Source: Lepraria neglecta (Eukaryota > Ascomycota > Lecanoromycetes > Lecanorales > Stereocaulaceae). Taken from it: a DNA stretch of 64,000 nucleotides. Within the stretch, counting starts at the first letter, position 1, and every line of letters begins with the position of its first letter. Below the pieces are notes generated by a model. The model was not told the DNA's origin, searched no databases, and was given only the letters and a program-made list of their open reading frames with translations. Shown here in pieces: positions 48,476-51,795 of the stretch. The DNA is taken from assembly GCA_033220425.1 (NCBI GenBank), contig CM065649.1:2046001-2110000 (forward strand), written 5' to 3'. A program made the position numbers and the translations under genes.

Positions 48476-51400
48476 ATGTCTCGCCGTCCATCAATCGCTG
48501 CCACTCTGCAGAGTCATGCTACCAACAATACGGGCAACATCGCCAAGTGCCTCTTCATGAACGCCGAGCACCAACTTATCAAGGAGAAGCACCGAGCACT
48601 CGCCTCGACTAGATGCACTCGAGACATCTGTCAACCTAGTCGAGCTATACATACAGACGAACCTCGAGTAGGAGAGAACCGTTCCCTAGAATCCGTGTGT
48701 CAAGACGCCGATGATTTCTTGAGAGACATCTACGACGAAGGGTTTTTCCCAAATGAAAAACCACTCGAGGCCAGACTGCAGGCAGTCCATGCTGAGATTC
48801 TCTACGGTGCGATTGAAGGGGTTGCGAGAGGGGACAAGATACAAACACGACTCGGCGGGAACTGGACGCAAACGTATGAGGAACTCGAGTTTGGACTCCG
48901 GCGAGCATGGAGGAATGCGCGCAAATGCATTACGAGGAATCACGCGGAAGAGCTCAAGTTATGCGACCTTCGATCAGTGACATCGAGTGAAGAGATGGCC
49001 AAGGAGCTTTTGCGGAACGCAGTCGAAGCATTTAATGAAGGCAGGATTGAGCCAACAGCTTTCGTCTTTCCCCCAAGAACCATCGACAGCAGAGGACCTA
49101 TGATCTGGAACAATCAGATTTTGGACTTTGCTGGCTATGAGATGGAAGATGGCACTATTCTTGGAGACCCTGCGAATGTCGACTTGACCAACGCGGTTAT
49201 CGACCTCGGATGGACGCCGCCCCAACCTTGAGGCCGATGGGATCTTCTACCACTTGTGACAATGGCTGAAGGCGACAAGCCAGCGATGATGGAGATTCCT
49301 GCCCCTTTGTCCAACTTGGTCGACATCAGTCATCCGCAATTTCCATCAATTGCGGCGCTGAACCTGAAGTGGAAAGCCGCGCCAGCGCTTACTCGTTTAG
49401 GCTTCGACATTGGTGGCGTCCAATACACGGCCGCACCCTTCATTGGCTGGTTCATGGATGCCGAGATCGGAGTCCGCAACCTTGCAGATTCGTTCCGTTG
49501 TAATGTCTTGCCAGATATTGTCCAAGCAAAGGGCATGACCAAGGGCAAGTTTGTTGATGGTATTGACTCCTTTGACGATCTTCCAGAGTATGAGCAGCTT
49601 GCTATGTTATCCCGCGCGCAATCAGAACTTAATTACACCGTCCAGTGATCATTCAATCAGGCTGGTGTGACGATGACAGAATCCCTCACAGCTTCGGAGA
49701 AGTGGTGCAAGTTTGACGATGAATTCAGAGAAAATCATGGCTACAGATTGCCTGCAGATCCGTACTGGCTCGCTCCGCCTCAAGGATCCATCATTCCAGT
49801 CTGGCATCGCGGCGGTGCCCCCAACTATCAGCCGAAGCCGATGATTTCGAAACACGTGCGGGACCAAATCAAGGCTTGGAGGCGAGAATGACATAGATGG
49901 CAGGTTTCATCGGAGCCTACAAAGATTATGACTCTTTCGCAAACGGCTGCCTTTCCCGCATTGATCTCCAAGAAGGCGCCAGAAGTCACTGTCGAGGAGA
50001 TTGGTGAATTCTCCGATGATGATGGCGCAGACGCCATTTCAATAACATCCACGCTTTCCGAGCTGAAGACTATCGCTATATATTTCTGCAGCGCTGGTAC
50101 CATCGCCGAAAAGTTGGCTAAGAGATTGCACAAACGTCTCGAATTGCAGACCAAGGTCTTATTGAACATGGCCTTACATCCTCGTGTGGAGTGCTTGAAT
50201 GATCTGAAGGCAACAGACCTGACCGCTGACAAGATCTTCCTCTTGGTCATGAGCTCTACGGGGAAGGGTGAAGTGCCGCCGAATGGGTCTATATTTCATC
50301 GCGTCACGCGCCTGTCATCTATTGAAGGAATGAGCTTCGCTGTCTTCGGCAATGGAGACAGTCGCTACTCGGCCACCTATAATGGTACAGCAAAAACAAT
50401 CCATCAACATATGCAGAAGCTTGGCGGACATCCTTTGATCCGCAAAGTCTTCCCGTGGCGATATCGCGGTTGAACTGATCCCCTATTCCCCAATGAGCTC
50501 TTGGTGGAGAAGCCTCAAGCCAAAGGTGGGCGAGCTCATTAATATAGACGACACAATGATCGTCGACTATGGTTCGAAGCTTCCTGTGAAGGAGGATGCA
50601 TTGAACGAGCTACCTCCTGCTCTCGAATACGCTATCGAACGCCTTGCAACCCATGCAAAGGACTTACGCTCCTTTGAAGAACGCTTCGATTATCCCAACC
50701 CATCCAGCGAACACGGACGCCTCGCAAAGGTCCTTGAACCTCAGTTTGGACATTGGCAGTGCAATGTATAAGGACATAAACTGCATCCAAATCCTTCCAT
50801 TGAACCACCCATCCAAAGTCGACCGCGCACTCAAAGCCCTCAGTGTCGATGGCGATTCCATACCAGAGCTCATAACAGAAGCCATTCCCACTTACTCAAC
50901 CTTCCTAACCAAATTTGCGGACCTCGATAGCCCCTTTAAATTACTCGACTGGCTCCTCGCAACCGACGACCCAGCCGCATCATCATCAGCAGACCTGATG
51001 AAAGAAATGCCAAGTCACCTATTCGTCCTCGAAACCCTCGAGCTATTCTCCAAAACGAAGCTCCTCTCCGCCTCCATCAGCGACCTGTCTTTCCTCCAAG
51101 ATGTTCTCCTCTCGATGCCACTCCTCCACAGTCGAACCTATTCCGTTGCTTCTTCGTTACTCACCCCATCAGAGTGCCACAACAAACTCGACCTAATGCT
51201 CAAACGTATCCCCAACGGCCGCTTCAGCTCCGTATTTCTAAACGACCACTCCGCAAACTCATCATCATCAGAACCAGCACGCCTTCAATACCGCATCGTC
51301 GACTCTGTCTCCGGCCCACGACTCCGCGATCTTAATACAAAAAATGACAAGCCTCTCGTCGTGGTCGCCACTGGCGCCGGCTTCGGACCTATCAATTGCC

Positions 51401-51795
51401 TCTTGCAGGCACGTATCACAGCTGCTCATCGGAGAACAGAGTCGGAAGGGCCCATTGACCAGACGACGTCCCTCTTCCTCGTGTTCCATCACACCGACGT
51501 TCCACTCGCTCAGCCAATCCTCGATGAAGCGAGCTCTCTCGGCCTCATCGACGAGGTGCATATCGTCGAGAGCAATGCCGAAAAGAAGCGCGTGCAGGAT
51601 TTGCTAGTGCGTGAAGATGTGGCGGAGATGCTTAAGGAGAGTTTGTTGCAAGGGGAAGGGGGCTGGGCGTCTGTGTGTGAGAACGAGCAGGCTGCGATGG
51701 GTGTTAGGGCGGCGTTTGAACAAGTGCTGGGGAGTGAGGGTGTTGATGAAACATTTCATGGGGAGCGGTATTTGAAGGAAGTGTTCTCATCTTGA
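48476..51795 (+). pseudogene. Animal-type nitric oxide synthase-like gene, full-length but disrupted
   Basis: Oxygenase module: LRRAWRNARKCITRNH carries the heme-thiolate Cys (codon 48926-48928). GPMIWNNQILDFAGYEMEDG and GDPANVDLTNAVIDLGWTPP follow. AAPFIGWFMDAEIGVRN holds the Arg-binding Glu (49463-49465) and a pterin-site Arg. ADPYWLAPPQGSIIPVWHR closes the module. Flavodoxin module: TIAIYFCSAGTIAEKLAKRL, FLLVMSSTGKGEVPP, FAVFGNGDSRYS. Reductase module: RTYSVASS (FAD) and VVVATGAGFGPINCLLQAR (NADPH). Lesions: in-frame TGA at 49229, 49646 and 49889, and +1 frame changes near 50450 and 50738. All segments otherwise lie in order, with no intron needed, for about 1,100 codons. Upstream ATG 48476 begins a ~70-residue leader. 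An intact enzyme would make NO and citrulline from arginine. Confidence 0.85.

Follow-up and report, generated by a model that had tools for sequence, protein, structure and literature searches.

Positions 48476-51795 on the forward strand of the window (the whole 64-kb stretch of Lepraria neglecta DNA analysed here, contig C4) harbour a nitric oxide synthase (NOS)-like sequence, hereafter NOS-A, in which an oxygenase module is followed by a flavodoxin and an FAD/NADPH reductase module, with no introns between or within them (Table 1). PF02898 (NO_synthase) matches the three open pieces of the oxygenase in turn at E 1.3e-39, 1.2e-31 and 1.8e-6, and in a search of the whole genome it gave a single match over the NOS-A oxygenase at E 3.0e-86. 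The flavodoxin module (PF00258, positions 49928-50470, E 2.7e-13) lies 3' of the oxygenase. Aligned end to end with the intact lichen-fungal protein P0003, NOS-A is 85% identical over P0003 residues 1-651, 60% over residues 648-727 and 76% over residues 723-1097, in agreement with the module order, the single strand and the intronless form that the earlier note had read from the letters. The same note had described an NOS-like sequence with three modules, which is upheld by the two Pfam matches and, for the reductase, by a structure match (see below); it had named a 48.7-49.9 kb segment devoid of any match to the NOS HMM as grounds for rejection, and matches down to E 1.3e-39 were found there.

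The catalytic residues remain visible, as had been claimed. On alignment with mouse iNOS, the heme Cys, substrate Glu and pterin-site Arg fall on codons 48926, 49463 and 49475, respectively, and the pterin-site Trp is also present; their roles, including that of the Cys as heme thiolate, are presumably those established in animal NOS. A Cys-x4-Cys pair (codons 48614 and 48629) resembles the zinc site of the animal enzymes. The lack of an obvious calmodulin-binding linker in NOS-A is compatible with a crude charge scan, in which no 20-residue stretch of the linker is more basic than +3 in NOS-A, +4 in three lichen relatives and +6 in Aspergillus niger. A weak site is possible, and calmodulin control of this type of NOS appears unlikely. 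Rfam and tRNA scans of the 64-kb window returned no matches.

Table 1. Modules, lesions and motifs of NOS-A, in positions of the window
Feature	Position	Strand	Basis or remark
NOS oxygenase piece 1, with Cys-x4-Cys and heme-ligand Cys	48476..49228	+	PF02898, profile 4-163
Lesion 1, in-frame TGA	49229..49231	+	relatives continuous there
NOS oxygenase piece 2, with substrate Glu (49463-49465) and pterin-site Arg (49475-49477)	49232..49645	+	PF02898
Lesion 2, in-frame TGA	49646..49648	+	
NOS oxygenase piece 3, with pterin-site Trp (49766-49768)	49649..49888	+	PF02898, profile 290-355
Lesion 3, in-frame TGA in the linker 3' of the oxygenase	49889..49891	+	
Linker and FMN-binding flavodoxin	49892..50470	+	PF00258; TGA 50471-50473 reached after the frame change
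Lesion 4, frame change	about 50440-50470	+	
Linker to the FAD module, in the other frame only	50439..50690	+	60% identical to P0003 residues 648-727; continuous in P0254
Lesion 5, second frame change	about 50670-50690	+	
FAD/NADPH reductase module, open to the stop	50686..51795	+	predicted structure and Foldseek
Reductase motifs	RTYS 51133-51144; GAGFGP 51373-51390; C-terminal ERYLKEVF 51763-51786	+	

The reductase piece gave no match in a Pfam search, such that the HMM check proposed earlier succeeded for NO_synthase and Flavodoxin but failed for the reductase segment. Searching positions 50644-51792 against the PDB with phmmer returned one match only, to an unrelated protein (E 0.8). By contrast, a structural model of positions 50686-51792, the open piece of the window itself, computed together with 54 relatives (mean pLDDT 90), matched in Foldseek both P450 reductase (3qfc, E 1.1e-17) and the FAD/NADP+ domain of rat nNOS (1f20, E 1.8e-17). 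Judged by its predicted fold, the FAD/NADPH module is present in NOS-A and too divergent for Pfam. This structural demonstration of a module missed by Pfam is apparently new, as far as our literature searches show, and in the case of this gene the model speaks against a passage of PMC7400543 according to which fungal NOS have lost the FAD domain; profile searches miss the module. The point was tested structurally on two sequences, namely the NOS-A module and one intact relative. The model of intact P0003 (mean pLDDT 81) has an oxygenase that superposes on animal NOS heme domains with a TM of about 0.84 (0.84 for nNOS). The likeness to animal NOS (mouse iNOS, rat nNOS) thus extends over the predicted oxygenase fold of P0003, the heme Cys, substrate Glu and pterin-site Arg, and the predicted reductase fold. 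Unlike the animal enzymes, NOS-A has no obvious calmodulin-binding linker, its FAD/NADPH module is too divergent for Pfam, and a search of the whole genome for 6-pyruvoyl-tetrahydropterin synthase (PF01242) found no match, so that no pathway to the animal pterin is apparent. The pterin of bacterial NOS can be folate-derived; given the lack of a synthase match, that of the fungal enzyme might therefore be folate-derived as well. The best E-value to the P0003 model belonged to cyanobacterial syNOS (9q05), across 1121 columns, although syNOS is only 24% identical, longer, and not superposable as a whole chain (TM 0.29, rmsd 32.5).

The description 'animal-type' given to the locus at first reading is too strong, the closest relatives being fungal NOS proteins, of which 364 match at E 1e-10 or better. 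Among the 120 matches listed, the closest relative is 86% identical to NOS-A and the closest named one, Cladonia borealis P0009, 76%. In a tree of 91 of 121 rows (30 rows from already represented genera having been removed), NOS-A sits with P0002 and P0003, adjoining Cladonia. The intact lichen-fungal proteins P0002, P0003 and P0009 are 76-86% identical to the frame-1 part of NOS-A, share its three modules and are continuous over 1072-1134 aa, whereas the L. neglecta copy carries five lesions. The contig encoding P0002 is only 3631 bases long, which allows at most 226 bases for introns, and there is therefore little room for them. NOS in fungi is already known, a large family being annotated in Aspergillus, Colletotrichum, Cercospora, Zymoseptoria and others. 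Members from these four genera carry the oxygenase and flavodoxin Pfam domains and are 44-49% identical to NOS-A among the matches listed, some of which also carry FAD_binding_1 or NAD_binding_1; they fall outside the set with the lichen sequences in the trees. Passages in PMC4929157 and PMC10889981 describe NOS as absent or rare in fungi, which fits poorly with the 364 matching proteins. In a Cladonia-like genome, the NOS on a 3,041,699-base contig is split within the FMN region, from either loss or assembly error.

Where the earlier note spoke of a gene, it missed that no single translatable frame runs through all modules of NOS-A. Five lesions interrupt the reading: three TGA codons lie in frame, and the frame itself shifts twice. 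We therefore regard NOS-A as a pseudogene. P0002 and P0003 run uninterrupted across the lesion places, and introns can be ruled out as the source of the stops, because none of the five interrupts the proteins of the relatives. Repeat-induced point mutation is likewise unsupported: set against the usual thresholds of its indices, the dinucleotide ratios of NOS-A (TA/AT 0.44, (CA+TG)/(AC+GT) 1.43, compared with 0.66 and 1.31 for the window) show no sign of it.

We asked how often lineage-specific substitutions fall on columns conserved to at least 80%, which make up 262 of the 759 columns (35%). Such columns received 12 of the 29 NOS-A-specific substitutions (41%), compared with 5/32 and 2/28 for the intact sister genes P0002 and P0003 (pooled 7/60; Fisher p 0.002). 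Changes in NOS-A hence meet conserved sites about as often as predicted by chance, which fits neutral expectation, whereas the intact sisters are constrained. Five of the 143 columns conserved to at least 95% are altered in NOS-A, against none to three in each of seven relatives. The share of radical changes did not differ significantly (13/29 in NOS-A, 17/60 in the sisters; p 0.15). Against the pseudogene reading stand the terminal branch of NOS-A (0.073), which is shorter than that of its sister P0002 (0.13), and the reductase third, still a single open frame. Going by the branch, the loss is recent, or else most of the branch was functional.

In two close relatives, too, the sequences appear broken, though not where NOS-A is. 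P0254 and P0249 are two separate pieces of the same 4,983,072-base contig, 84-89% identical to NOS-A, and P0250 is read in a wrong frame at its start and, judged by eye, near its end as well. P0254 is continuous across both NOS-A frame changes, so the breaks differ between relatives. On the strength of their identity, we take the sources of all three to be Lepraria.

That NOS-A is intact, and owes its stops and frame changes to faults of a long-read assembly, is highly improbable. Both frame changes are small, and the lesions are known from one L. neglecta assembly. One nitrate-reductase-like locus (L016, on C7) contains two in-frame stops, being either a dead gene or a second such error, and the NOS of one Cladonia-like genome is divided into P0011 and P0251. 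Against this, three of the five lesions are single in-frame TGA codons and involve no indels. As controls, searches for the HSP70 and CCT families returned 45 matches, nine of them with an internal stop; the three inspected among these nine (L024, L027 and L035) all have it at an exon end or an intron-like insertion. HSP70 is open across 598 positions, and two GT-AG introns clear a nitrate reductase (L015) of its stops and frame jump. The relatives mentioned above come from other assemblies and appear broken elsewhere. Lastly, the changes at conserved sites are not frame errors, and such errors in an assembly would not create the conservation pattern of NOS-A. It is highly improbable, too, that the remains are still used piecemeal, with the 373-aa reductase piece (or an oxygenase piece) serving as a shorter working protein. 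The reductase piece has 369 codons uninterrupted by a stop, is predicted to fold with the confidence given above, and has been entered in the databases as P0243, a separate hypothetical protein (OEA41_007755, 373 aa) to which it is 100% identical. Yet its start lies within a formerly continuous frame, and the FMN module that hands electrons on is missing from it; two of its 19 columns conserved to at least 90% are altered, and the copies of the relatives appear broken in the same reductase part (P0249, P0250).

A second NOS copy, NOS-B (L005), lies on the minus strand of another contig (C8:1144952-1148473), with three GT-AG introns in its oxygenase. NOS-B is broken as well: outside those introns, the frame changes twice in the oxygenase, and the reductase part contains two stops. 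The FMN-to-reductase part of NOS-B clusters with 13 database proteins (support 100, 14 rows), apart from NOS-A, and 11 of the 13 start at the same residue, three residues past the place of the third intron in NOS-B, as they would if this intron were shared and the genes had been called without introns at source. Single oxygenase pieces of NOS-B found no supported position in the tree. The NOS-B tree also contains two Collybia rows of great length (5.64 and 4.05), one of them placed beside NOS-A, most likely as an artefact, and this placement was disregarded. The introns of NOS-B and their absence from NOS-A would suit an origin of NOS-A as a recent intronless retrocopy of NOS-B, dead on arrival. 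This origin is barely credible: it is contradicted by the tree, in which the FMN-to-reductase part of NOS-B joins its 13 relatives in a clade separate from NOS-A, and NOS-A has full-length relatives at 75-86% identity, so its form is old and was once functional. Lichen fungi of this group seem instead to carry two NOS lineages, an intronless A and an intron-bearing B, and L. neglecta seems to have lost both. A search of the whole genome with intact P0003 (12 matches) recovered only NOS-A, NOS-B and one weak match in a flavodoxin region, with no intact NOS elsewhere in the L. neglecta genome.

The usual NO-destroying enzyme is flavohaemoglobin, the standard NO dioxygenase. The sole globin-family match in the genome (C3:3876903-3878130, minus strand, within L021), pieces of which match flavohaemoproteins, is itself broken by one TAG, three TAA and one frame change, such that the globin and reductase parts do not share one open frame. 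Some relatives are of intact length, among them P0123 (76%) and Pseudevernia consocians P0128 (66%), and a whole-genome search with P0123 (2 matches) found no locus besides the broken one. Lineage-specific changes number 19 in the L. neglecta flavohaemoglobin, against 6 and 14 in the comparison sequences; the conserved-site test was not significant (10/19 and 8/20, p 0.53). Nitrate assimilation presents another picture. Once its two introns (58 and 54 bases) are taken out, the nitrate reductase (L015, C4) is free of the stops and the frame jump, and a NIR_SIR gene on the same contig, likely a nitrite reductase, has an open frame of 1039 aa; both look intact across the parts examined. The nitrate-reductase-like domain at C7:4291886-4292404 (L016), in which no intron was seen by eye, is perhaps a decayed paralogue.

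L. neglecta (Stereocaulaceae, Lecanorales) is reportedly a leprose asexual lichenized fungus. We propose that the ancestor of NOS-A would have been an intronless full-length fungal NOS of the kind intact in related lichen fungi. To judge from the family and the conserved residues, electrons in these relatives would pass from NADPH through FAD and FMN to the heme, where arginine would be oxidised to citrulline and NO. The L. neglecta copy, by this account, would have acquired five inactivating lesions and would now be evolving without visible constraint. It is very probable that NOS-A is a pseudogene and that NOS-B and the flavohaemoglobin are broken too; with all three broken, L. neglecta would therefore most likely have neither NOS-made NO nor a standard NO dioxygenase. 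Any NO in the thallus would then come from nitrate reductase, nitrite chemistry or the partners. More tentatively, the Lepraria lineage could have dismantled its NO system as a unit while keeping nitrate assimilation, possibly because a developmental role of NO was of no use to an asexual leprose fungus; we consider this rather less than an even prospect. In Aspergillus nidulans, NO represses asexual and promotes sexual reproduction, according to a passage in PMC4929157. The combined loss may be read as drift after NO had lost its use, perhaps together with the loss of sex, or nitrate-derived NO may have acted as a replacement.

The expectation that a copy in this fungus would be informative on gain and loss of NOS stands, with the information concerning loss. 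As far as our searches show, the novelty lies in the loss of both NOS copies together with flavohaemoglobin in a lichen fungus; such a combined loss in lichen fungi was not among the open-licence papers that these searches returned. An inhibitor study of a lichen gave first indications that nitrate reductase is a source of NO, could not settle the matter of NOS-like activity and called for genetic work (PMC6681199). Given its sequence, L. neglecta may be a natural knockout for enzyme-made NO and, as a candidate NOS-null lichen fungus, would suit work on the open question of the origin of lichen NO: with the NOS copies dead and nitrate reductase apparently intact over the part examined, the two sources could be separable without inhibitors. 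If the dismantling is true, Lepraria and a sexual relative would form a natural knockout pair for this question.

Six NOS proteins from Collybia (Basidiomycota; P0025, P0034, P0043, P0047, P0094 and P0099) group with those of lichen ascomycetes, in a 12-row set with a support of 98 in the 91-row tree. Three of them, when retested, remained in a 27-row set of lichen rows and Lepidopterella (96/97). In a tree that has no outgroup root, this grouping suggests a transfer from an ascomycete.
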